Shown here in pieces: positions 31,448 to 43,131 of a DNA stretch of 64,000 nucleotides (positions are counted from its first letter, which is position 1; each line of letters opens with the position of its first letter). A program made the translations under genes and the position numbers. The notes below the pieces were generated by a model. It was not told the origin of the DNA, did not search any database, and saw nothing but the letters and a program-made list of their open reading frames with translations. Source of the stretch: Deltaproteobacteria bacterium (GTDB lineage Bacteria; Desulfobacterota; Desulfobacteria; Desulfobacterales; Desulfatibacillaceae); assembly GCA_016235345.1 (NCBI GenBank), contig JACRLG010000015.1, positions 1 through 64,000 of the forward strand, read 5' to 3'.

Positions 31448-31771
31448 GATTTCAAATGTTAAAGAAATATATACACTTCAAGCCGGTATAAGCTTTTAGG
31501 AAAAAAGCCGGAAACTTCGCGGTGTGGAGCGGTGTCTTGTTGCGTTAATGCAACACCTGCTTTCCTCATGCGGCCCAGGGCGTTTCCCGTTGAAAAAGTC
31601 AAACATCTTAACATCTTGTTTCAAAAGGCATAAAATATAATCTTCCGGGTTTTGGCCCATCCGGCACGGGTGATGCATTGATAATTCGGGCGTGGAAGCC
31701 GTGGGGCGGGTTCATTCCACGTCAGGGCGGTGGATGCATTGAAAACGTTTGGATCATCGAAGGGCGGCGGC
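31448..31771 (+). promoter_or_regulatory. Intergenic region with sigma-54-type promoter and palindromic upstream site
   Basis: GG at 31663-31664 and GC at 31675-31676 are exactly 10 bases apart in CGGCACGGGTGATGCA, a good match to the -24/-12 sigma-54 element. About 108 bases upstream, TGTTGC-GTTAAT-GCAACA (31538-31555) is a perfect palindrome resembling an activator-binding site. The trmO-like gene follows 95 bases after the -12 element. No gene is seen in the stretch. Confidence 0.6.
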
Positions 31772-32302
31772 ATGGCGTTAAAATCCGAAAAAGTGGTGAT
31801 AGCGCCCATAGGCGTCATCGAATCCGTTCACGTCGAGGCCGACAAAACCCCCATTCAGCCGGTTTTCGCAAGGGGCGTGAAGGGCCGCGCCGTGGTCTTT
31901 CCCGAATACGCGGAAGAGCTTGACGGCATCGAGGAATTCACCCACATCATCCTGATATACCACTTCCACCAGGCCGGGCCGTCGGCCCTGACGGTAAGGC
32001 CCTTTCTGGAGGATGTCGAAAAGGGCGTTTTCGCCACCCGCCATCCCAAAAGGCCCTCCGGCCTGGGGCTTTCGATGGTGAGACTGACCGCTCGTGAAGG
32101 AAATGTGCTGCTGCTCGAAGACGTTGACATCCTTGACGGCACGCCCCTTCTGGACATAAAACCCTGGGTCGCCAAGTTCGACCGTCCCTTTGACGCGGGA
32201 AGCGGGTGGGTTGACAATGTTGACGAACAAACCATGAAACAGCGTGGAAGGCGGAATTTTGCCGGGAACGGCGGAAATTCCGATAGCGGGGAAAAATCAT
32301 GA
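31772..32302 (+). CDS. trmO: TrmO/TsaA-family tRNA methyltransferase-like protein
   Basis: A 176-residue protein of the TsaA (UPF0066) family. In E. coli TrmO methylates N6-threonylcarbamoyladenosine at tRNA position 37 using SAM. Family features: IAPIGVIESVHVE, GIEEFTHIILIYHFHQAG, TRHPKRPSGLGLSMVRL and LLDIKPWV. I use the ATG at 31772, with AAGGGCGG upstream. The C-terminal tail (RGRRNFAGNGGNSDSG) is low complexity. Its stop overlaps the start of the next gene. In anaerobes TsaA proteins often sit beside metalloenzyme genes, so a role outside tRNA is possible. Confidence 0.85.
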   Translation: MALKSEKVVIAPIGVIESVHVEADKTPIQPVFARGVKGRAVVFPEYAEELDGIEEFTHIILIYHFHQAGPSALTVRPFLEDVEKGVFATRHPKRPSGLGLSMVRLTAREGNVLLLEDVDILDGTPLLDIKPWVAKFDRPFDAGSGWVDNVDEQTMKQRGRRNFAGNGGNSDSGEKS

Positions 32303-33186
32303 TAATCGCCGTAACGGGCGCAAGAGGGGCCGGAGCGACCTTTGTCGCGGCCAATCTTGCGGGAGCCTCGCTTTCGCCCGTGACTCTTTTGGATATGGAT
32401 GTTTCAAAACCGTGTTGCGCGGATTTCATACGTGCCGAAAAAATCGCATCCGAGCCGGTCTTCGTTCCGGTTCCAAGGATTGACGCGGCCCTGTGCGACT
32501 CCTGCGGCGAATGCGTGGCCGCCTGTTATTACAAGGCCCTTCGGCCCTTCAGGGGCGCGCCCCAGGTTTTTCCGGCCCTTTGCCACAGCGGCGGAGCGTG
32601 CCGAAGGGCCTGCCCCACAGGGGCCATAACCCTGGCGGCAAGGCTCATCGGAGCCGTTGAAACAGGAGTTTCCGGCAACATTTTCCTGGTTTCCGGCAAA
32701 ATGAGCGACCACGAGCACATGGGGCGGATTCTCGAAAAATCCATCAGGAAATTTGCCGAGCCCGGCGGGCTCACCATAATGGACTGTCCGCCGGACGCCT
32801 TTCCAAACCCCCTCGAATGCGACGTGATGCTGTGGGTGGCGGAGCCTTCGCCGCGCGGGATTTACGAGCTTTCCCGTTCTCTGTTGAAAGCGCGGGAAAA
32901 ACGCCTTCCCTTCGGGGTGGTTGTGAACAGGTCGGGCGCGGGAGATGGCCGGATTGAAAGGCTTTGCCGGAAGGCCAGGGTCCCGGTTTTTCTGAGCATT
33001 CCGGATAGCCCTGGCATTTCGGCTGCGATATCGGAAAACAGGCTCCTTGTGGATGATCTTCCGCGATTGCGTCTGAGTTTCCGCCAAATGCTCCTTTCCG
33101 CCAAAAACCAGGCCCGGCGGCCTTCCAGGCTCTTTCTGATGGGGCCTTCTGTGCACGAGGGCGACATCGCGGCCCTGGCGTCCTGA
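32299..33186 (+). CDS. MinD/COG1149-type ATPase with inserted ferredoxin domain, degenerate P-loop
   Basis: A 295-residue protein of the MinD-like family carrying a ferredoxin insert. The deviant Walker A that should read KGGxGKT is TGARGAGATF here (residues 6-15), so both lysines are missing. The first cluster motif is intact (C66-x2-C69-x2-C72-x3-C76). The second reads C95-x5-C101-x3-C105, lacking one cysteine. The switch region IMDCPPDAF and the later LWVAEPSPRGIYELSRSL are kept. It overlaps the trmO-like gene by four bases and is under a sigma-54-type promoter. Members usually come in pairs and help metalloprotein maturation or electron transfer; this one may only bind a partner. Confidence 0.75.
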   Translation: MIIAVTGARGAGATFVAANLAGASLSPVTLLDMDVSKPCCADFIRAEKIASEPVFVPVPRIDAALCDSCGECVAACYYKALRPFRGAPQVFPALCHSGGACRRACPTGAITLAARLIGAVETGVSGNIFLVSGKMSDHEHMGRILEKSIRKFAEPGGLTIMDCPPDAFPNPLECDVMLWVAEPSPRGIYELSRSLLKAREKRLPFGVVVNRSGAGDGRIERLCRKARVPVFLSIPDSPGISAAISENRLLVDDLPRLRLSFRQMLLSAKNQARRPSRLFLMGPSVHEGDIAALAS

Positions 33187-33483: not shown

Positions 33484-33720
33484 ATGAACGCCATCATCAT
33501 CAAAAACGACGGAACCATCAGGCATCCCGAAAAAAAACAGGGGGCGGACATACTGTCCTGCCTGGGTATGCCCGTTGTTTTGGAGCGGGGTTTCACCCTG
33601 GCTGGTTTTTTTCGCCTTATCAAAAATCATCCCGACCTGGCCCGGTTGAACGACATATTGCCTGATCTCGCGGAAACCCTGGGCGGGCCGGAGAGCCCCG
33701 CGCCGCGAAGGCAATGGTGA
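33484..33720 (+). CDS. Short hypothetical protein, possible severed N-terminal domain
   Basis: A 78-residue protein with a good ribosome-binding site (GGAGGATGAAGCG before the ATG). It begins [19 protein letters not shown] and includes [19 protein letters not shown] do not recognise a family. Its last codons overlap the start of a sigma-54 activator fragment in another frame (overlap ATGGTGA), and the activator lacks everything before its VNCAALP segment. The pair may be what remains of one longer regulator after an internal deletion plus frameshift; the small protein would be its N-terminal domain. Confidence 0.55.
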
Positions 33721-34496
33721 AGGTGAACTGCGCGGCCCTTCCCGACAATCTTCTGGAATCGGAGATGTTCGGCTACGTGAAGGGGGCCTTCACCGGGGCG
33801 GACAGGGACAAGCCGGGTCGCTTCCAGGAGGCCGACGGCGGAACCATATTTCTGGATGAAATCGGCGACATGCCCGTAGCTCTCCAGGCCAAGCTCCTCC
33901 GGGTCCTGGAGGACAAGGAGTTCTACCCCCTTGGAGGCCGCCGGGTGGTTAAGGTGGACGTCCGGATAATCTCCGCCACCAACAGGGGCCTCTGCGACAT
34001 GGTTAAGGAAAAAACCTTCAGGGAGGACCTTTATTACCGCCTGAATGTCATGCGCCTTTCGATTCCGGCCCTCGCCGAACGCCGGAGCGACCTACCACTT
34101 CTGATCAGCCACATCATGAAGCGACTGGCCATTGCGCGCAAGCTGGAGGCGCTCAAGATCACCGGCCCTGCGATGGAGATTCTGCTCAACCACGATTATC
34201 CGGGAAACGTGCGGGAGATGGAAAACATCCTGGAACACGCCGCAATAATCTGCAGGGGGGAGGAAATCGCCCCAAGGCACCTTCCGCTTTATCTTCAAAA
34301 GGATGAAAAAAGGGAGCCTTCGCCGGAAACCTGTGCGCCGACCCTTGAAAAAAGCATGGACGATCACGAAAAATCGGCCATTTCCGGGGCTCTTGAAAAT
34401 TGCCGGGGAAACAGGGGCAAGGCGGCCAGGCTTTTGGGAATGGACCGGTCAACGCTGTGGCGCAAGATGAAAAAACATGGAATCGCGGGGGACTGA
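33714..34496 (+). pseudogene. Sigma-54 activator fragment lacking Walker A
   Basis: A 260-residue reading frame that starts inside the AAA+ domain at [19 protein letters not shown]. The sigma-54 contact loop GAFTGA is intact, as are Walker B ([13 protein letters not shown]), the sensor I region (ATNRG), the arginine-finger region ([14 protein letters not shown]), sensor II (GNVREMEN) and a C-terminal Fis-type HTH ([22 protein letters not shown]). The GESGTGK P-loop is absent in all frames upstream, so ATP hydrolysis, and thus normal activation, is not expected. It could still bind DNA. Either a decayed gene or a DNA-binding competitor. It is overlapped by the preceding ORF and followed by a receiver protein. 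Confidence 0.75.
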
Positions 34497-34936: not shown

Positions 34937-35719
34937 TTAAGAATCCTCCCCGAAACCGGGCGCGGTTCTTCCCAAAAAGCGCAAAAGCCCGTCCAGGGCG
35001 GTGAGCGGGTGGGGGGGGCAGCCGGGGATGTAAAGATCGACCGGCAAAAGAGAGCCCGCACCATTATTCGCTTCGGGATGATCGGCAAAAGGCCCGCCGC
35101 TTATGGCGCACGAGCCGCAGGCGATGACCACCCTTGGCTCAGGCAGGGCCTCGTAGGTTTTTTGAAGCGCAAGGGCCATGTTGGCGGTTACGGGGCCGGT
35201 GACCAGAAGGCCGTCCGCGTGGCGAGGGGATGCCACGAACTGGATGCCGAAGCGTCCCATGTCCCAGGCGGGCGTACCCAGAACGTTCACGTCAGCTTCG
35301 CAGGCGTTGCAGCCGCCCGCCGAAACCTGCCGTAGTTTAAGCGAGCGGCTGAAATATTTTTTCGCCATCACGGATACCGCATCTGCGCTCTTTTGAGAAC
35401 CCTCCGCAATGACGAGGTCCTCCCGCCGCGCCGCCGCAAGCTGATGGTTTCGGGTGAAAACGATCGACTTATGGGGGCAGGCCCCGGAACAGGCTCCGCA
35501 GAAAAGGCACCGGCCCGTGTCTATGGTTACGCCCCCGTCCTTCCTTCGCCCGATGGCGTTCACCGGGCAGGCGGAAAGGCAGATATCGCATTTGTCGGGA
35601 CATGGCCCGTTTATCACCGGGCGGCCCTGGAACATGTCCGGCAAGGCGGGCAGAGGGCCTTTCGGATATTTGAACGTGCGGTGCTTCTGCGCAAGTCTTG
35701 CCCTTAAAATGTCCAGCAT
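34937..35719 (-). CDS. hyfI: HyfI/NuoB-like subunit with N-terminal ferredoxin
   Basis: A 260-residue fusion of an 8Fe ferredoxin domain (CPDKCDICLSACP near residue 40, CLFCGACSGACP near 71) and a NuoB-type small subunit. The proximal-cluster cysteines are all there: GGCNACE, ACGSCAISGG and PGCPPHP. It is the last gene of the leftward Hyf/Ehr-type operon. The cluster ligands are kept although the partner large subunit lacks the NiFe site, so the complex should still move electrons from ferredoxin into the membrane arm. Confidence 0.9.
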   Translation of the reverse strand: MLDILRARLAQKHRTFKYPKGPLPALPDMFQGRPVINGPCPDKCDICLSACPVNAIGRRKDGGVTIDTGRCLFCGACSGACPHKSIVFTRNHQLAAARREDLVIAEGSQKSADAVSVMAKKYFSRSLKLRQVSAGGCNACEADVNVLGTPAWDMGRFGIQFVASPRHADGLLVTGPVTANMALALQKTYEALPEPRVVIACGSCAISGGPFADHPEANNGAGSLLPVDLYIPGCPPHPLTALDGLLRFLGRTAPGFGEDS

Positions 35720-35754
35720 GGCTTTTCCTTTTGTATCGCGGGAGTGAAATTTGT

Positions 35755-37245
35755 TTACAGGTCATGCCCGCAATAGGAAAGATTGAAACTTTTGTTGCAC
35801 AGGGGAAAGTCCGAAATCTGCTGCCCTCGAAGAACCTGGGCCAGGCCGAACCAGTTGTGGAACGAAGGGTCCACCACCTTGTAAAAGGCGAACCTGCCCT
35901 CGCGGTTCGTGGCCGCCACGTGGCAGATTTCCCCCCGCCAGCCCTCGGTGAGGGCAACGGCAAGGCTGTCGGGCGCAAGGACCCCAGGGGCCTTCACAAA
36001 TCCGCCGCCGATGGGGGACTTTAGCTGTCTTCTGATGAAGCCTATGGACTGCTCGATTTCGAGTTTGCGGACGTAGGCCCTGGCAAAGCAGTCGCCCGTG
36101 TGAAAGGTGGACACGGGCAGTGAATCGAACCTGTAGGCCGAATACGGCAGGCGCACCCGAACATCCCGTGAAAGTCCGCAGGCGCGGGCGGCTGGTCCCA
36201 CAAGCCCTATCAGCCGAGCCGTTTCAGCCGAAAGCCCCCCGACCCCCTCCAGGCGGGCCAGGGCCGAGGACGCCCCGAAAAAGATCGAGATCGCCGATTC
36301 CAGGTCTTTTTCCACGTCGTCCAGGCGCGTGAGCAGGGTCTTCCTTCGATCCGCATCGAGGTCGAACCGCACCCCGCCCGGCGTTAAGAGGTTCCTCCCG
36401 AAACGGTTGCCGCAGATGAGGGCGGTGAGGTTTAAGATGTCGCCCCTGATGCGCCCGCAGTAATTCTGGGTGGGCAGAAATCCAATGTCGCCCGCAAGTG
36501 CCCCAAGGTCGCCCGTGTGGTTGGCCATGCGCTCCAGTTCGGCGGCCACGGCCCTTATCGAATCGGCTGCGGGTGGAACCTGTGCCCCCGAAAGGGCCTC
36601 CAGAACCGAGCAATAGGCCGTGGAGTGGCCGATGCTGGTGTCTCCCGCGAGGGTCTGCATGTAATGGATGGTGCGGGCGTCGGGGCCGAGTTCCACCGCG
36701 CGTTCGACGCCCCGGTGCTGGTAGCCTAAGGAAATTTCCAGGTGATACACCGTTTCGCCGTGGCACTGAAAACGGAAATGGCCGGGCTCTATGACCCCCG
36801 CGTGAACCGGCCCCACCGCCACCTCGTGAACCTCCGCGCCGTGCATGGAAAAAAAATCCGTGACGCCGATCTGGCCGGTCTTGCCTCCAACGCGGGAGGG
36901 CTCGAAGCGGATGGGTTTGAGCCAGGGATGACCGAAGGGCATGATGCCGTACTGTTCGTGGATTTCCCGCTCGAACCAGTGCGCGCAAGGGCAATCGGCG
37001 GTTATGGACGGATAAATTTTTCCGATCTCGGCTGCCGCTATCCCAAGCTGTTCCCGCGCTGCATCGCATAAAACCGCGTAGAGCCGGAATTTGTCGCCGA
37101 AAGGCCTTGCGAACAGGGCGGAAAGGATGTCGCCGTGGCCGAGCCTTTCTATGACCAGTTCACGGAAGGAGTCCACGGGAAGCGCCGGAACCTCGGAAAG
37201 CGGCGCGGCCTCGCCGTTATATACGCGAAGGATGGAATCGGTCAT
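35755..37245 (-). CDS. hyfG: NuoCD/HyfG-like large subunit lacking NiFe cysteines (Ehr type)
   Basis: A 496-residue fusion of a NuoC-like domain (about 25-120, FEREIHEQYGIMPFGHPWLKPI) and a NuoD/hydrogenase-large-subunit domain. Where true group 4 hydrogenases have RxCGxC, it reads MQTLAGDTSIGHS (about 196-208). Where they end with DPCxxC, it ends DFPLCNKSFNLSYCGHDL (479-496). Both nickel-binding cysteine pairs are therefore absent, which matches the energy-converting hydrogenase-related (Ehr) group. I start it at the ATG at 37245, sharing one base with the upstream hyfF stop (TGATG). The longer ORF to 38334 is a shadow of hyfF. Confidence 0.9.
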   Translation of the reverse strand: MTDSILRVYNGEAAPLSEVPALPVDSFRELVIERLGHGDILSALFARPFGDKFRLYAVLCDAAREQLGIAAAEIGKIYPSITADCPCAHWFEREIHEQYGIMPFGHPWLKPIRFEPSRVGGKTGQIGVTDFFSMHGAEVHEVAVGPVHAGVIEPGHFRFQCHGETVYHLEISLGYQHRGVERAVELGPDARTIHYMQTLAGDTSIGHSTAYCSVLEALSGAQVPPAADSIRAVAAELERMANHTGDLGALAGDIGFLPTQNYCGRIRGDILNLTALICGNRFGRNLLTPGGVRFDLDADRRKTLLTRLDDVEKDLESAISIFFGASSALARLEGVGGLSAETARLIGLVGPAARACGLSRDVRVRLPYSAYRFDSLPVSTFHTGDCFARAYVRKLEIEQSIGFIRRQLKSPIGGGFVKAPGVLAPDSLAVALTEGWRGEICHVAATNREGRFAFYKVVDPSFHNWFGLAQVLRGQQISDFPLCNKSFNLSYCGHDL

Positions 37246-38732
37246 CACATGCCTCCGCCCAGGGCGGCAGCCGCCTCGCTCAAGAGATTCCGCAAAGGAG
37301 GCGGCACCCAAAGCCCCAGCGCGAGTACGCAAAAAATAAGGACCACCGGACCTGCTACGGAAAAAAAGGATTCGCGGACCTTCATTATTGGCGGGTTCGC
37401 GGCCACCAGAGGTTGGCCGTAGGCCATACGCATGGCGGCCCAGATTATTCCGGCAAAGGCCAGGACAAGCGCCGCAAGATAAGCACCTGCCACCCAGTAG
37501 CGGCCTCCGGCAAGCGCCCCTTTTAAAATCGTAAGCTCGCTTGCGAACAGGCCGAAAGGCGGCGAACCCGTCACGGCCAGAATCCCCGCGAGCCACAAAA
37601 CCCCGCTCACGGGCATCACCCCCAAAAGCCCCCTGGTGTCCTTGGTGATCTTGCTCTGGTACACAGCCAGGATGTTTCCCGCAACCATGAAGAGAGCGGC
37701 CTTTACCAGGGAATGATTCACCGCGTGAAGCATGGCTCCGAACCCGGCCACTCCTCCCACGCCCACGCCCACAGCCATCACTCCCACATGCTCCACGCTT
37801 GAATAGGCCAGCATTCGCTTGTAGTCGCTCTGGGAAATCAGCAGCATTGCGGCCCATACCATTGATATGAGGCCGAACAGAACCAGCCTGTCCCTTGCGA
37901 ACTGGCCAAGGCCCGCAGCCTCCATGATGGTGTAAACCCTCAGTATAGCCAAAAACGCGCAGTTCAAAAGCGCCCCGGACAAGAGCGCGGACACCGGCGA
38001 CGGGGCCTCGCTGTGGGCGTCCGGCAGCCATGAATGCATGGGAGCCAGGCCCATTTTGGTTCCGTATCCAACGAGCATCAGAAGAAAGGCGGCCTTGAGC
38101 CATTCCGGCGAAAGCCTGGCCGCGTGTTCCACAAGGACAGGCAGCAGAAGGTTCAGTTCCCCGCCGGATAAAGAGCGCGTGGCCATGGCGAGAAAGAAGT
38201 TGCCCAGAAGGGCCAGGGAGATCCCCACCGAGCAGATGAGCAGGTATTTCCAGGCAGCCTCCAGGCTCCTGTGGTGGCGGTGATGATAGATAAGGGGGGC
38301 GCTGGCCAGCGTTGTGGCCTCCACCGCGACCCACAGCACGCCAAGGTGCCGGGAAACTGTCACCGTGGTCATGGACGCCAGAAACAGAAGCAGGCAGCCG
38401 ACGAAAACCGCGTCAGGGCGGTTCTCGAACTGGTAGCCTTCCAGATAGTCGTTGATGGGAGCCTTTCGGGAAGGGGCCAGATAGAAGATCGAATAGATGG
38501 CCACCGAAAGGAAAAGAAGGCTCGCTATGCTCAAAAATAGGAGGGACGCGGAGTCGACGGCAAGCCAGCCCGACGCCGCCGTAAAGGGCAGGGGCATGAT
38601 CCACGCGGCCATCACCAGCAGAAAATGAAGTGCAGCCGCTCCGGTGAGAAGAAAGAGTCCGGCGCGGCCCGATTTCAGGAAAAAGGCGAAAAAGCCGCAA
38701 AGGGCGGGAACCAGTATCAAGGCCCAGATCAT
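37245..38732 (-). CDS. hyfF: HyfF/NuoN-like proton-pumping subunit
   Basis: A 495-residue antiporter-like membrane protein with about 14 hydrophobic segments. The conserved charged residues of Mrp/Nuo antiporter subunits are visible: a glutamate in LWVAVEATTLAS and lysines in ALLSGALLNC/VKAALFM-type helices, with GYGTKMGLAPMHSWLPDAHSEAPSPVSALLSG near 230. It forms part of the membrane arm that moves protons or sodium. It overlaps the large-subunit gene by one base. Confidence 0.9.
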   Translation of the reverse strand: MIWALILVPALCGFFAFFLKSGRAGLFLLTGAAALHFLLVMAAWIMPLPFTAASGWLAVDSASLLFLSIASLLFLSVAIYSIFYLAPSRKAPINDYLEGYQFENRPDAVFVGCLLLFLASMTTVTVSRHLGVLWVAVEATTLASAPLIYHHRHHRSLEAAWKYLLICSVGISLALLGNFFLAMATRSLSGGELNLLLPVLVEHAARLSPEWLKAAFLLMLVGYGTKMGLAPMHSWLPDAHSEAPSPVSALLSGALLNCAFLAILRVYTIMEAAGLGQFARDRLVLFGLISMVWAAMLLISQSDYKRMLAYSSVEHVGVMAVGVGVGGVAGFGAMLHAVNHSLVKAALFMVAGNILAVYQSKITKDTRGLLGVMPVSGVLWLAGILAVTGSPPFGLFASELTILKGALAGGRYWVAGAYLAALVLAFAGIIWAAMRMAYGQPLVAANPPIMKVRESFFSVAGPVVLIFCVLALGLWVPPPLRNLLSEAAAALGGGM

Positions 38733-38737
38733 GTTCG

Positions 38738-39379
38738 TCAGTCTTTCAAGTCCGACAGATCGCCGGTGTCGATGTCGTCGAATTCCCTGTTTATATGATA
38801 AATCATGATTCCCATGACAAATACCGCCGCGAAAACATCAAGAAGCACCCCGGTCTGAACCAGCCATGACTCCTGAATGGCGAAGGCCACGCCGAAAAGG
38901 TAGATGCTGTTTTCCATGGTGAGAAAGCCCAGAACCTGGGTGATGGCCTTTTTTCTGGCCACGATGAGAAAAAGCCCGGTAAGCATGGTGAAAAGCGTAA
39001 CCGGCACCAGAAGCTGCGTGGCCTCGCCCAGTGGCACCCTGAGGGGCCGCATGGCCAGAAAGCTCGCCACCAGCATTCCGACGCCTATGAGGACCGAAAA
39101 TGTGTAGCCCACGAAAGGCTGCATCTCCTGCACCACGCCGGTCTCGCTCATGGCCCTCTTCACGAGCCCCGGAAGCACGATGGCCTTCACCAGGGTGACC
39201 AGGACAATCAGAAGCGGCACCCAGGTCCATGAAAAGCCGTGGGTGAGAATCGCCAGCACTCCGATAACGAGGGCCTGAAAGGCAACTGTGCGGACGCATG
39301 CGCCAAGCTGGCTTGCGCCCAAGAGCCTGAAATTCAAGAGCACCAGAAGGATCGTCATGGCTTCATAAAAGGATTGCAT
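38738..39379 (-). CDS. hyfE: HyfE-like membrane subunit
   Basis: A 213-residue membrane protein with six or seven hydrophobic segments, similar to HyfE/HycE-associated NuoK-like subunits: LLVLLNFRLLGASQLGACVRTVAFQAL at the start, then VLGFLTMENSIYLFGVA near residue 160. The conserved glutamate of NuoK-like helices (TMENSI) is present. It lies 5 bases from hyfF and 6 from hyfC, in the middle of the operon. Confidence 0.87.
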   Translation of the reverse strand: MQSFYEAMTILLVLLNFRLLGASQLGACVRTVAFQALVIGVLAILTHGFSWTWVPLLIVLVTLVKAIVLPGLVKRAMSETGVVQEMQPFVGYTFSVLIGVGMLVASFLAMRPLRVPLGEATQLLVPVTLFTMLTGLFLIVARKKAITQVLGFLTMENSIYLFGVAFAIQESWLVQTGVLLDVFAAVFVMGIMIYHINREFDDIDTGDLSDLKD

Positions 39380-39385
39380 GAAAGC

Positions 39386-40297
39386 TCACCTCAAAACGTT
39401 GAACAGCGCAAGGAAAGACAGTACGCCTGAGGCCACCAGCAACTGGGGCACCCTTACCAGCTTGAGCCTCGCCATCGTCGATTCTATGACACCCACCAGA
39501 ACGGCCATGAGAAAAAGCCCTGAAAGCCCGGCCAGAAGGTCCAAGCCGGGGTTTAAGGAACGCAGGGGCAGGGACATGGAAACCAGGATGGAGCCCAGAA
39601 TCCAGAACTTCACAGCCGACGCGTACTCGATGAAGGCAAGGTCCACTCCGCAGTGGTCCAGGATCATGACCTCGTGGATCATGGTAAGCTCAAGGTGCGT
39701 GGTGGGGTCGTCAACCGGGATGCGGGCGTTTTCGGCAAGAAGCACCACCAGAAGCGCCAGGGAAACCAGGATCAGGGTGGCCGGGCCGCCGTTGACGGTC
39801 ATCCCGTCCCAGGCCGTGGCGCACATGTCGGTTAGAGAAAAGGAGTGAACCATCGCAGCCACCGCAGCCAGGCCCACGATGAGGGTTACCTCGGCCAAGG
39901 CGGAAAACTGCACCTCCCGGCTTGCTCCCATGCCCTCGAAGGCGGAGCCGGTGTCCAGGGCGGCGGTCACGAAAAAGAACCGCGAAAGCCCAAGGGAGTA
40001 GGCCAGAAAAACCAGGTCGCCCGAAAAGGACAAAAGGGCGGGAACCCCGCAAAGGGGGGTCACCGCAAGGGCTGCCAGCACCGAGGCCAGCTCGATGGAT
40101 GGGGCCGCGCGGAAAATCCAGCTCGTTGTGCGGCTGTAAACGGCTCCCTTGCGCAGGAGCTTTACGAGATCATAGTAAGGCTGAAGAACCGGCGGGCCGT
40201 TCCGGCCTCCGAAAAAGGCCTTTGTCCGGTTTATTACGGAATAAAGAAGCGGGCTTAAAAGGAGAGCCAGAAAAAAGTTGAGTATTTGCCAGGTCAT
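39386..40297 (-). CDS. hyfC: HyfC/NuoH-like membrane subunit
   Basis: A 303-residue NuoH/HycD-like protein with about eight hydrophobic helices. It has the family segments NGPPVLQPYYDLVKLLRKG (near 33) and the acidic loop MIHEVMILDHCGVDLA (near 210), which connects the peripheral and membrane arms. It starts 178 bases after hyfB; that gap is filled mainly by a palindromic repeat. Confidence 0.9.
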   Translation of the reverse strand: MTWQILNFFLALLLSPLLYSVINRTKAFFGGRNGPPVLQPYYDLVKLLRKGAVYSRTTSWIFRAAPSIELASVLAALAVTPLCGVPALLSFSGDLVFLAYSLGLSRFFFVTAALDTGSAFEGMGASREVQFSALAEVTLIVGLAAVAAMVHSFSLTDMCATAWDGMTVNGGPATLILVSLALLVVLLAENARIPVDDPTTHLELTMIHEVMILDHCGVDLAFIEYASAVKFWILGSILVSMSLPLRSLNPGLDLLAGLSGLFLMAVLVGVIESTMARLKLVRVPQLLVASGVLSFLALFNVLR

Positions 40298-40351
40298 TTT
40301 TTAATGAGCCTTACCATCTTGTTGAAAATGCCGTACTCAAGGCCTGGATAT

Positions 40352-40475
40352 CAGCCTGATCAAAAACGATGAAATGCGAAGGTTGGCAAGCCTAAAAGAA
40401 GGGAGCGTACGCTTTTGTACGTGACCGACTTTTAGGCGATGCCTGACACAGCAGTTCGCGTTTTTGGACAGGCTG
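40352..40475 (-). repeat. Post-stop palindromic repeat, copy 2 (hyfB/hyfC)
   Basis: On the minus strand it begins directly after the hyfB TGA: CAGCCTGTCCAAAAACGCG, AACTGCTGTGTCAGGC. A hairpin GCCTAAAAG / CTTTTAGGC with apical GTACG/CGTAC follows, and it closes with CATTTCATCG and TTTTTGATCAGGCTG. Outer arms CAGCCTG/CAGGCTG pair. It lies inside the hyf operon. Confidence 0.88.
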
Positions 40476-42431
40476 TCACCACAGGTTCCAGAAAAGCATG
40501 ATGAGAATGGCTATCACTATGTAAAGGATGTAAAGATTGGTCCGCCCCTGCTGGAGCCGCCGGAAAAGGCCGGCCAGCCTTGAGACGAACATCACCGCCG
40601 GCCCGTAGGCCCTTTTCACGAAGATGTCGTCCGTGTGGGTGTGCAAAGACGCCCCGGCGGGAAAAAGTCCTTCCGGCTGCTCGATCTCGGTCCGGGTGCC
40701 CAGTAAAATTCCGAACATGCCGACTATGGGCCGGGCAAAGGAGGATGCGGTGTACTGCATCCTTTCGTTGGGCGCGGCGTAACCGCAATCCCAGGTAAGA
40801 CTTTCTTGTACGGAGCGGTTTTTTAGAAGGCCGCCGCGCAGGAAGAAAAAGAAAGCCGCCAGCCCCCCCATGCAAAGGGCCATGATGCTTATGCCTGCGG
40901 CAAAACCATCGAGCCCGCCAAGCGTTTCCGGGGTGACCGCGCCCGACGCCACCTGGGACGCAGCCGGCATAACCAGGCCCACCGCCAGAAAGGCCAGAGG
41001 CCCTATGGCCGCGCACAAAACGGCCAGCGTTATCATGGGCCAAAGCATGAGGCGGTTTGATTCGTGCGCTTTCGCGGCCTGCCCGGTACGGGGCTCGCCA
41101 AGAAAAACGATCCCGAAGGCCTTGGTGAAGCAGGCTGCGGCAAGGCCGCCTATAAGGGCCAGCCCGGCCACCGCCGCCAATCCGCCCCATGCAGCAGCGC
41201 CCTGGCTCATGCCGGTGAATCCTGCGGAGTAGATCAAAAATTCGCTGACAAAGCCGTTAAAGGGCGGCAGGGCGCTAATGGCCGCCGCTCCCACCAGAAA
41301 AACCGCCCCGGTCACGGGCATGCGCTTTATGAGTCCGCCCATGTGGTCTATCTCGCGGGTTCCGGTGGCGTGAAGCACGCTTCCGGCTCCCATGAACAAA
41401 AGGCTTTTGAACAGGCCGTGATTGATGACGTGCAAAAGCCCGCCGCAAAGCCCCAGGGCCGCCAGAGCCTGATTGCCCGAAGTGATCCCAAGAATCCCGA
41501 TTCCAAGGCCCAAGGCTATGATGCCGATGTTTTCAACGCTGTGGTAGGCCAGAAGCCTTTTCAAGTCGTGCTGGGCAAGGGCGAACAGAACCCCGGCAAC
41601 CCCCGAAATCACGCCTGTGGCAACCAATACCCAGCCCCACCAGGGAACGGGCGCGCCAAGAAAGGTCATCACCCTTAAAATGCCGTAAATGCCGGTTTTG
41701 ATCATGACTCCGCTCATGAGGGCCGAAACGTGCGAAGGGGCCGCCGGGTGAGCTTCGGGAAGCCAGACGTGTAAGGGGGTGAAACCGGCCTTGACTCCGA
41801 AACCGATAAGGGCCGCCGCGAAAATGAACGTAGCCTCTGAACCCGTTGCCGCCAGACGGGAAAAATCCATGTCCCCCGCGTGACCCAACAGGAGGAACAT
41901 AACGAGCAGAAAGGCGGTTCCGATGTGGGTGGCCACAAGGTATATCCATCCCGCGCGGCTGACTTCGTCTTTTTCATGGTCGTACATCACCAGAAAAAAC
42001 GAGGCAAGGCTCATGGCCTCCCAGGCGGTGAGAAACAGGAAACCGTCCCTTGCCACCACCACCAGAAGCATGGATGCCATCAAAAGATTGTACCAGCACC
42101 AGCTCATGGCGATTTTGCCGTCACCGCTGTCCCTGCCGAGGTAGCCATGCCCGTAGACGGCGGCAAGAGCGCCCACGAGGCTTATGAGAAGGACGAAGAG
42201 GGTTGACAGAGGGTCCATGCCTATATGGAAGCTGCCTAGCGGCATGTCCCACCAAAGAGCGAGGTCGAGGCTCCCACCGTCTATAAAACAAGCGATCCCG
42301 GCGGCAAAGGCCGCTGCGGAGCCCAAGGCGGCGGCCAGCGGACCAATCGTGGCCAGCCGGGTGCGGCCCCATAGAGCGGAAGCCAAAGCGCCTATAACCA
42401 GAATTGCAAGGGAAACAAGGATTAGCGACAC
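40476..42431 (-). CDS. hyfB: HyfB/NuoL-like proton-pumping subunit
   Basis: A 651-residue antiporter-like membrane subunit with about 16 hydrophobic segments. It has the Mrp/Nuo landmarks LTAWEAMSLASFFLVMYDHE near residue 132, GFGVKAGFTPLHVWLPEAHPAAPSHVSALMSGVMIK near 220, and VINHGLFKSLLFMGAG near 335. The C-terminus carries extra helices typical of HyfB/HycC. It starts with GTG at 42431, five bases after the upstream regulator gene, with GGAAGGGA upstream. It is the first structural gene of the complex. Confidence 0.9.
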   Translation of the reverse strand: MSLILVSLAILVIGALASALWGRTRLATIGPLAAALGSAAAFAAGIACFIDGGSLDLALWWDMPLGSFHIGMDPLSTLFVLLISLVGALAAVYGHGYLGRDSGDGKIAMSWCWYNLLMASMLLVVVARDGFLFLTAWEAMSLASFFLVMYDHEKDEVSRAGWIYLVATHIGTAFLLVMFLLLGHAGDMDFSRLAATGSEATFIFAAALIGFGVKAGFTPLHVWLPEAHPAAPSHVSALMSGVMIKTGIYGILRVMTFLGAPVPWWGWVLVATGVISGVAGVLFALAQHDLKRLLAYHSVENIGIIALGLGIGILGITSGNQALAALGLCGGLLHVINHGLFKSLLFMGAGSVLHATGTREIDHMGGLIKRMPVTGAVFLVGAAAISALPPFNGFVSEFLIYSAGFTGMSQGAAAWGGLAAVAGLALIGGLAAACFTKAFGIVFLGEPRTGQAAKAHESNRLMLWPMITLAVLCAAIGPLAFLAVGLVMPAASQVASGAVTPETLGGLDGFAAGISIMALCMGGLAAFFFFLRGGLLKNRSVQESLTWDCGYAAPNERMQYTASSFARPIVGMFGILLGTRTEIEQPEGLFPAGASLHTHTDDIFVKRAYGPAVMFVSRLAGLFRRLQQGRTNLYILYIVIAILIMLFWNLW

Positions 42432-42435
42432 GTTT

Positions 42436-43131
42436 TCACGTCCCTTCCGTTTCGGGCGGCAGGCTCTTTATCAAGGCGTCGATCACCCCGGCCTCCGAAA
42501 GTATTTCCGAAACACCGGCCCTTTTGGAAATCGCGTCTTTGAACCCGGCCTTCTGAAGGGCGAAGGAAAGCCTGGCCAGAAGGCGCAGATGCCCGGAAAT
42601 GGTCGGGCTGACTATGGTGAAAAGGGCGTGGACGGGCAGGCCGTCAATGGAGTCCAGCAAAAGCGGGGTAGAAAGGAAGCAAAGGGAAACAACGGGCGAT
42701 TTGATGTGGATTACGACGGGGTTCTGAACGTGGGGAATCGCGACGCCGCCGCCTATTCCCGTTGCGCCCAGCGATTCGCGGGCCAGGAGGACCTCTTTGA
42801 GGTTGCCTCTTTCTTCGGGGCCGGGCAGGGGCAGGAGCCGGACAAGCTCCGAGCACAGGGCCGCCTTGTCTTTTATCGACGCCAGGGTGTGGATTCCGCC
42901 CGATTCCAGCGCCTCCCGCAATTCATAAAAACCGGCCAGACCGTCCTCCCTGAATATTTCAAGGGGAAGCGGCACCCGGTTGGACGTGGCCCATTCCAGA
43001 AGTTCTATCCTGTTGAACCGGTATTGGTCGTTAATCCGGTGGGCGGGCAGTTTTTGCCCGGAAATCCACCGGTAAACGGCCTTTTCCGAAACACCGAAAA
43101 GAGTAGCAACATCCCGGACAACCAGCTTCAT
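42436..43131 (-). CDS. HTH protein fused to a PTS EIIA-Ntr-like domain
   Basis: A 231-residue fusion. Residues 1-55 form a MerR/excisionase-type HTH (LVVRDVATLFGVSEKAVYRWISGQKLPAHRI...YRFNRIELLEW). Residues about 75-225 form a PtsN-like domain whose phosphorylatable histidine lies in TGIGGGVAIPH. It probably links a phosphotransfer signal to DNA binding. It heads the hyf operon, five bases before hyfB, behind a sigma-70 promoter at 43184-43213, and is the obvious candidate regulator of the complex. Confidence 0.85.
   Translation of the reverse strand: MKLVVRDVATLFGVSEKAVYRWISGQKLPAHRINDQYRFNRIELLEWATSNRVPLPLEIFREDGLAGFYELREALESGGIHTLASIKDKAALCSELVRLLPLPGPEERGNLKEVLLARESLGATGIGGGVAIPHVQNPVVIHIKSPVVSLCFLSTPLLLDSIDGLPVHALFTIVSPTISGHLRLLARLSFALQKAGFKDAISKRAGVSEILSEAGVIDALIKSLPPETEGT

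Follow-up and report, generated by a model that had tools for sequence, protein, structure and literature searches.

Energy-converting hydrogenase-related (Ehr) complexes have been described from Geobacter, Nitrospira, the Candidate Phyla Radiation (CPR), Riflemargulisbacteria and other groups, and the available parts of those accounts give them a group-4-like large subunit without NiFe cysteines together with antiporter-like membrane subunits (PMC6349859, PMC7894505, PMC10284858, PMC7304191). No reaction is known for these ligand-free complexes, according to the available parts of three of the papers (PMC6349859, PMC10284858, PMC7304191). They are related to both hydrogenases and complex I and, to judge by the titles of the locus records, are found across several phyla. 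The systems closest to them are formate hydrogenlyase (FHL) and hydrogenase 4 of Escherichia coli, complex I, with its homologous membrane arm and core (NuoB/CD/H/I/L/M/K), and the sulfane-sulfur reductase MBS of Pyrococcus furiosus, a hydrogenase relative that has lost its NiFe site. Here we analyse a 64,000 nt stretch of contig JACRLG010000015.1 (assembly GCA_016235345.1) from a Deltaproteobacteria bacterium of the Desulfatibacillaceae, called the window throughout. The evidence supports the assignment of positions 34937-42431 as the genes of an Ehr complex, a relative of the FHL/hydrogenase 4 lineage. Ehr, its ligand loss and its lack of an established reaction were already known, and the window copy is a new member. 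We read Ehr as an ion pump in which the proton-coupled passage of electrons from a ferredoxin-type donor to an acceptor would power ion movement, under control linked to the phosphotransferase system (PTS), and we would give this reading a probability of roughly 0.55.

There are six Hyf-like genes on the minus strand between 34937 and 42431 in the order B, C, E, F, G, I, exactly as listed in a preliminary description of this DNA. That description gave the span as 34937-43131, which does contain the six genes; they stop at 42431, however, and the rest is a seventh gene that is unlike the six and that the description did not mention, although it lies inside those coordinates. This gene is the first of the operon and encodes a protein with an HTH_17 and a PTS_EIIA_2 domain, referred to below as HTH-EIIA. 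The features, in the order of the operon, are as follows.

42436-43131, minus strand: HTH_17 (excisionase/MerR-like) plus PTS EIIA_2 protein, 231 aa (Pfam PTS_EIIA_2 2e-17, HTH_17 1e-12)
40476-42431, minus strand: HyfB/NuoL-like antiporter subunit, 651 aa (Proton_antipo_M 1e-55)
40298-40475, minus strand: 178 bp gap within the operon with a copy of a dispersed repeat (41 genome matches)
39386-40297, minus strand: HyfC/NuoH-like membrane subunit, 303 aa (NADHdh 2e-29)
38738-39379, minus strand: HyfE-like (NuoK-related) membrane subunit, 213 aa (Oxidored_q2 3e-6)
37245-38732, minus strand: HyfF-like antiporter subunit, 495 aa (Proton_antipo_M 3e-52)
35755-37245, minus strand: large subunit EhrL (HyfG-like; 30 kDa and 49 kDa domains), 496 aa (Complex1_49kDa 1.5e-36)
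34937-35719, minus strand: small subunit EhrS, 8Fe ferredoxin plus HyfI/NuoB-type domain, 260 aa (Oxidored_q6 1e-26, Fer4 matches)

The HyfE-like subunit additionally matches the NCBIfam hydrogenase 4 membrane subunit (1e-21, under the curated cut-off), and the ATG of the EhrL gene overlaps the stop codon of the HyfF-like gene. The relative order B-C-E-F-G-I and the fusion of 30 kDa and 49 kDa domains in the large subunit are shared with the Hyf and HycE/HyfG proteins of E. coli. In contrast with hydrogenase 4, the HyfH-type ferredoxin domain is fused to EhrS and there is no hyfD-, hyfA- or hycI-like gene among the reading frames of the operon. There are also no NuoEFG genes within the operon, in contrast with complex I. 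Single subunits match Pfam families with E-values down to 1e-55 and the ligand replacements described below recur in 93 sequences (window included), so the assignment is not a matter of chance.

EhrL was aligned against CHARACTERISED relatives, namely HycE, HyfG and NuoCD from the E. coli MG1655 record. The four NiFe ligands of HycE (C241, C244, C531 and C534) align with A200, T203, S490 and G493 of EhrL, so that no ligand cysteine remains. Both NiFe-binding CxxC motifs that mark a group 4 [NiFe] hydrogenase are therefore gone; the preliminary description had claimed as much and had named an alignment with characterised Hyf as the check, and that alignment bears it out at all four positions. 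The large subunits of these hydrogenases carry a C-terminal extension that is removed in maturation, and we take HycE to be cleaved after R537. The last residue of EhrL, L496, aligns with R537, and all 121 full rows end there with no extension. The AlphaFold2 model of EhrL (predicted local distance difference test, pLDDT, 91.7) has HycE of FHL as its best match in the PDB (7z0s_E, template modelling (TM) score 0.87), and its TM score to NuoCD of complex I is 0.84. A 56-sequence tree, from a single FastTree run with a selected subset and incomplete outgroup sequences, unites the 43 Ehr rows in one clade beside HycE and HyfG (support 0.913). The window groups with loci from Geobacter, Pelobacter and Geomonas, in a comparison set without sequences published as Ehr. 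Taken together, the ligand loss, the subunit set (NuoL-, NuoH-, HyfE- and HyfF-like proteins with a large and a small subunit), the single clade and the agreement with published descriptions support the filing of this complex as Ehr, which is where the preliminary description had placed it.

Conservation was scored over 119 distinct EhrL sequences, with distinctness judged over residues 140-496 after removal of three rows broken by contig ends. As 81 of these sequences come from 80 loci chosen by two peptide patterns inside residues 140-155, conservation within that segment is partly due to selection; the other 38, the window included, lie outside the pattern-chosen loci and give the same picture. 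In the available part of the FHL structure paper, HycE E193 is the loop acid, H284, E437 and R395 form a path, R478 belongs to the canopy and the canopy residue D529 is termed strictly conserved in the comparison made there (PMC9474812). The proton-path residues E193, H284, R395, E437 and R478 of HycE align with EhrL E153, H243, R354, E396 and R437; R354 is present in 118 of the 119 sequences and the other four in every one. The canopy D529, in contrast, aligns with N488, and this position is Asn in 117 sequences, Ser in two and Asp in none. G201-D202, D246, N484-K485-S486, G493 and D495 are each invariant in all 119. Cys is found at position 200 in two sequences, so a single cysteine at a ligand position does survive, if rarely. 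That the path is otherwise retained while the canopy Asp has become Asn suggests proton-coupled chemistry of a different kind and not a dead remnant. Most likely, the NiFe centre has been replaced in EhrL by a different, strongly conserved pocket.

The preliminary description had also placed two cysteines, C483 and C492, near the C-terminus of EhrL, correctly, and had proposed that they might bind something. This proposal is weakened by the wider sample. C161, C278 and C492 were invariant in an initial set of 93 sequences that included the window, with Cys at position 483 in 84 of them and Asn in nine. In the 119 distinct sequences all three of C161, C278 and C492 are found in 102 and none in 11, with only C278 missing in four and only C161 in two; position 483 holds Cys in 107, Asn in 11 and Val in one, and C492 gives way to Ser or Ala in 13. 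Both C483 and C492 are gone in at least two proteins (at locus L125 and in the second copy at L079), and because both positions vary the pair is not essential to the family. A cysteine metal site, made first of C483/C492 and then of C161/C278/C492, has thus been ruled out as a general feature by the wider sampling. The cysteine-poor forms branch near the base of the Ehr clade in the 56-sequence tree. This placement, which comes from the one FastTree run on that subset with its partial outgroup, would be compatible with the main group having acquired the cysteines later.

EhrS is a fusion of an 8Fe ferredoxin domain, at the N-terminus, with a domain of the NuoB/HyfI type. Each of its eight ferredoxin cysteines, and each of the four that belong to the proximal cluster, is present in 69-78 of 78 aligned rows, window included. 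The proximal-cluster cysteines are C137, C140, C204 and C234 (each in 73-75 of the rows), and in the alignment with HycG, HyfI and NuoB their spacing is the CxxC of the hydrogenase type and not the tandem CC of complex I. In the membrane arm, conserved residues include E138, K214 and K342, among others, of the HyfB/NuoL-like subunit (at least 95% of the letters in 67 aligned rows), E121, E128, E136, E189, D196, D197, E203 and E209 of the HyfC/NuoH-like subunit (77 rows) and E138, K226, K305 and K344 of the HyfF-like subunit (78 rows). The antiporter Glu and Lys residues and the acidic residues of the NuoH-like subunit presumably have the functional roles generally given to them.

These features are consistent with the following mechanism. 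Electrons from a reduced ferredoxin-type donor would be taken up by the 8Fe domain of EhrS and travel through the fully cysteine-ligated proximal [4Fe-4S] cluster to the EhrL pocket, where an acceptor would undergo proton-coupled reduction with protons arriving via the path shared with hydrogenases. The NuoH-like subunit would then transmit the energy to the two antiporter-type subunits, which would move ions. Alternatively, an ion gradient could drive the reverse reaction and so reduce ferredoxin. The ferredoxin-type input and the ion pumping, both of which the preliminary description had put forward, would fit the conserved clusters and the antiporter Glu and Lys residues. Beyond the cluster chain we infer each of these steps from sequence, as we do the donor, the direction and the ion.

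The gene at the head of the operon has a counterpart at many other Ehr loci. Neighbouring genes were clustered for 80 named loci and the window, with flanks of up to 10 kb and families in fewer than four stretches not listed. HTH-EIIA was the only common non-core family, present in 43 of the 81 stretches (window included); the next families were present in five and four. A profile search finds HTH-EIIA beside the B or C gene in 44 of the 80 loci, from several phyla, and as 18 of the 80 are cut by a contig edge this amounts to 44 of the 62 loci that can be read (at least 1 kb upstream). In 34 of these 44 loci the gene precedes the first core gene, in eight it lies inside the operon and in two it is divergent. 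At locus L043 there are two tandem HTH-EIIA genes ahead of the Ehr operon (L043:1518-3004). Additionally, in 247 genomes of the phylum there are 42 EhrL matches of at least 450 bits, and HTH-EIIA (at least 137 bits) lies within 25 kb of 26 of them and within 12 kb of 25. Conversely, 24 of the 26 EIIA matches of at least 250 bits are within 25 kb of an EhrL match of at least 300 bits, the other two being on contigs without an EhrL match; as the profile itself derives from proteins encoded next to Ehr, the result demonstrates that this orthologous group is linked to Ehr, not that it is exclusive to it. Ten of the 11 EIIA matches of 150-250 bits lie away from EhrL. Eight of ten such remote matches were retrieved and the next gene was scanned in seven (L117-L123); in all seven the related HTH-EIIA directly precedes a gene for a CLC-type channel/exchanger with CBS domains.

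The AlphaFold2 model of HTH-EIIA (pLDDT 87.9) has PtsN (3urr) as its best PDB match and also matches the fold of 1a6j. His134, in the motif AIPH, is of the phospho-acceptor type, a role that we assume for it, and a His of this type is found in 29 of 30 aligned HTH-EIIA proteins. The protein therefore has both the fold and the acceptor-type His of a PTS EIIA of the Ntr/Fru type. It differs from PtsN/EIIA-Ntr in its fused N-terminal HTH_17 domain and in that its gene sits with a complex of the ion-pumping type. The genes for the rest of a relay are at hand: the genome that holds the window has an EI gene (G000:C13:126531-126902) beside an HPr gene (126962-127168) and two EIIA_2 genes, and EI is found in 48 of 51 Ehr genomes. 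The probable role of HTH-EIIA is to sense how a PTS(Ntr)-type relay is phosphorylated and to adjust the expression, or possibly the activity, of the pump accordingly.

A sister class of complexes, for which we coin the name Ehr2, was met at L125:6323-13724, L127:9839-17263, L131-L138 and L079:12275-19907. Its large subunit is 36-37% identical to the window EhrL (three compared) and has an SGD[ST] motif, and C161, C278 and C492 are missing in its 11 sequences. The small subunit is 168-198 aa long and without the 8Fe ferredoxin domain in ten of the 11, and is degenerate in L079. In L127 and L079 the Ehr2 genes adjoin a normal Ehr operon. Searches of the open-licence literature, as far as its text was available, turned up no pertinent report of Ehr with an HTH-EIIA or other PTS IIA partner, of the canopy Asp-to-Asn change, of a ferredoxin-less sister class or of EIIA with CLC; the papers cited as defining Ehr may report some of these. 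In PMC3578206 the letters Ehr occur only at the start of author names.

The genome that holds the window has HypD and so cannot decide whether Ehr depends on NiFe maturation. We therefore turned to 50 Ehr genomes, picked from the 80 for spread, which are mostly metagenome assemblies without stated completeness. HypD was not found in 18 of the 50. Two of these 18, Geothrix paludis (G082) and Rectinema subterraneum (G071), have records whose titles name a strain instead of a metagenome assembly. Among quinones the survey covered menaquinone synthesis, for which the 50 genomes and the window's own were searched for MqnA/D and MenD. MqnA/D is present in 24 of the 51 and MenD over the cut-off in five, the window's own genome included, giving a marker in 29; the MenD profile has some match in 47 of the 51, many of the sub-cut-off ones being to related enzymes, and only matches over the cut-off were counted. 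Neither marker was found in 22 of the 51, including R. subterraneum. HypD and both menaquinone markers were all not found in nine genomes (G044, G045, G048, G052, G059, G067, G071, G083 and G085), one of which, R. subterraneum, is titled as a strain. Single absences are weak evidence because of the type of assembly, and it is the pattern and the strains that carry weight. In view of the 18 genomes in which HypD was not found and the 22 in which no menaquinone marker was, H2 is unlikely to account for all Ehr complexes, and so is menaquinone.

Several observations weigh against the reading of Ehr as a ferredoxin-fed pump under PTS-linked control. HTH-EIIA is not beside Ehr in 18 of the 62 readable loci and not near 16 of the 42 EhrL genes of the 247-genome survey, so it is not obligatory. 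The origin of the EIIA profile in Ehr-adjacent proteins means that its best matches favour an Ehr setting, one of the 30 aligned HTH-EIIA proteins, itself linked to Ehr (L111:4240-4974), has Ser in place of the acceptor-type His, and EI is common at large, being present also in seven of 14 control genomes. Ehr2 lacks the ferredoxin domain, which means that ferredoxin cannot be the source of electrons throughout. Residues 492-496 of EhrL have a pLDDT below 50 in the model, and the geometry of the pocket therefore rests on sequence alignment. Finally, HypD is present in 32 of the 50 Ehr genomes, and its presence in the window's own genome means that NiFe maturation is available here and that there may be other NiFe enzymes.

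Other explanations of the complex have to be set against this reading. Ehr could be a ferredoxin:menaquinone oxidoreductase in which, as in complex I, a quinone site occupies the former NiFe pocket, though it would be formed by other residues. The good match of the EhrL fold to NuoCD, the over-cut-off MenD in the window's own genome and the 29 genomes with a menaquinone marker are consistent with this. However, the His of the complex I beta1-beta2 loop (NuoCD H224) is replaced by I152, NuoCD Y273, which we take to be the quinone-site Tyr, by G201, and the canopy has R437 where complex I has Lys and N488 where it has Asp. With these signatures of complex I missing and 22 genomes without either marker, we consider menaquinone reduction rather unlikely. 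A formate-linked complex, in which formate dehydrogenase (FDH) passes electrons through Ehr to an acceptor, was proposed for Riflemargulisbacteria (PMC6349859). In line with it, the available parts of two further papers have the Ehr subunits of Geobacter sulfurreducens more abundant with formate than under hydrogen-containing conditions (PMC7894505) and Ehr subunits more abundant in syntrophic coculture than in pure culture (PMC8691401). Against it, apart from the core and HTH-EIIA no family recurs in more than five of the 81 stretches (80 loci plus the window), given the flanks and the threshold used for clustering, which means that no FDH or NuoE/F family was seen travelling with Ehr operons, and a partner would have to be encoded at a distance. 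This makes the formate link improbable; a dedicated soluble partner (FDH or NuoE/F) was dropped on the same ground.

The linkage of HTH-EIIA to Ehr, and of related proteins to CLC transporters, is also what would be expected if Ehr mainly pumped or exchanged ions under PTS regulation to keep pH or ions in balance, its redox arm being a sensor or gate with no true terminal redox partner; the available part of one study lists Ehr among possible pH-homeostasis genes of Methylacidiphilum (PMC6688271). The strong constraint on the iron-sulfur chain and the pocket suggests electron flow instead, and we hold this explanation to be slightly less probable than the formate link. Reduction of polysulfide or other sulfane compounds at the proximal cluster would make Ehr a counterpart of MBS, which is likewise related to group 4, has no NiFe site and includes ferredoxin-type subunits. 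According to the available part of the MBS report, however, MBS has a proximal cluster of three cysteines in a shortened motif, and MbsL keeps two of the NiFe cysteines (PMC7684303). EhrS, in contrast, keeps CxxC and all four cluster cysteines, and the window EhrL has no NiFe cysteine, so a reaction of the MBS type is very unlikely. There is, lastly, the idea that C483/C492 or C161/C278/C492 are ligands of a new metal site, in a hydrogenase or in some other enzyme. The joint presence of the latter three in 102 of the 119 sequences and the two cysteines at position 200 lend this idea some colour. The 11 sequences with none of the three, the six with part of them, the 12 replacements of C483 and the 18 genomes in which HypD was not found make this the most improbable explanation that we considered.

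A bolder form of the pump reading may be offered as a tentative possibility. The occurrence of Ehr in bacteria apparently without NiFe maturation and menaquinone suggests an acceptor that is neither H+, a quinone nor polysulfide. Ehr might then carry out an undescribed proton-coupled reaction in a distinct pocket (G-D, N-K-S-F-N-x-S and the canopy Asn), with HTH-EIIA as a dedicated DNA-binding PTS EIIA switch that would link phosphoenolpyruvate (PEP) status to ion pumping. For the reaction of Ehr, the pocket, the non-Asp canopy and the nine marker-negative genomes point to particular mutants to make and organisms to test. To judge by the HTH-EIIA partner, informative growth conditions would be shifts in PEP/pyruvate or ion status, and not only in H2.

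In addition to the Ehr genes, a few other features of the region were seen. The repeat at 40298-40475, between the B and C genes, matches 41 places in the genome, itself included, when the 178 bases are used as the query, and most of the matches are no longer than about 124 bp. The reading frame of a sigma-54 activator at 33714-34496 begins inside the AAA+ domain, with a Pfam match that starts at model position 53. We take the Walker A part to lie before that position, and because this part is missing the regulator looks broken or truncated. The gene at 32299-33186 encodes a CbiA/MinD-like ATPase with an inserted double [4Fe-4S] domain (CbiA match under the curated cut-off), and it is adjoined by a TrmO-like gene at 31730-32302.

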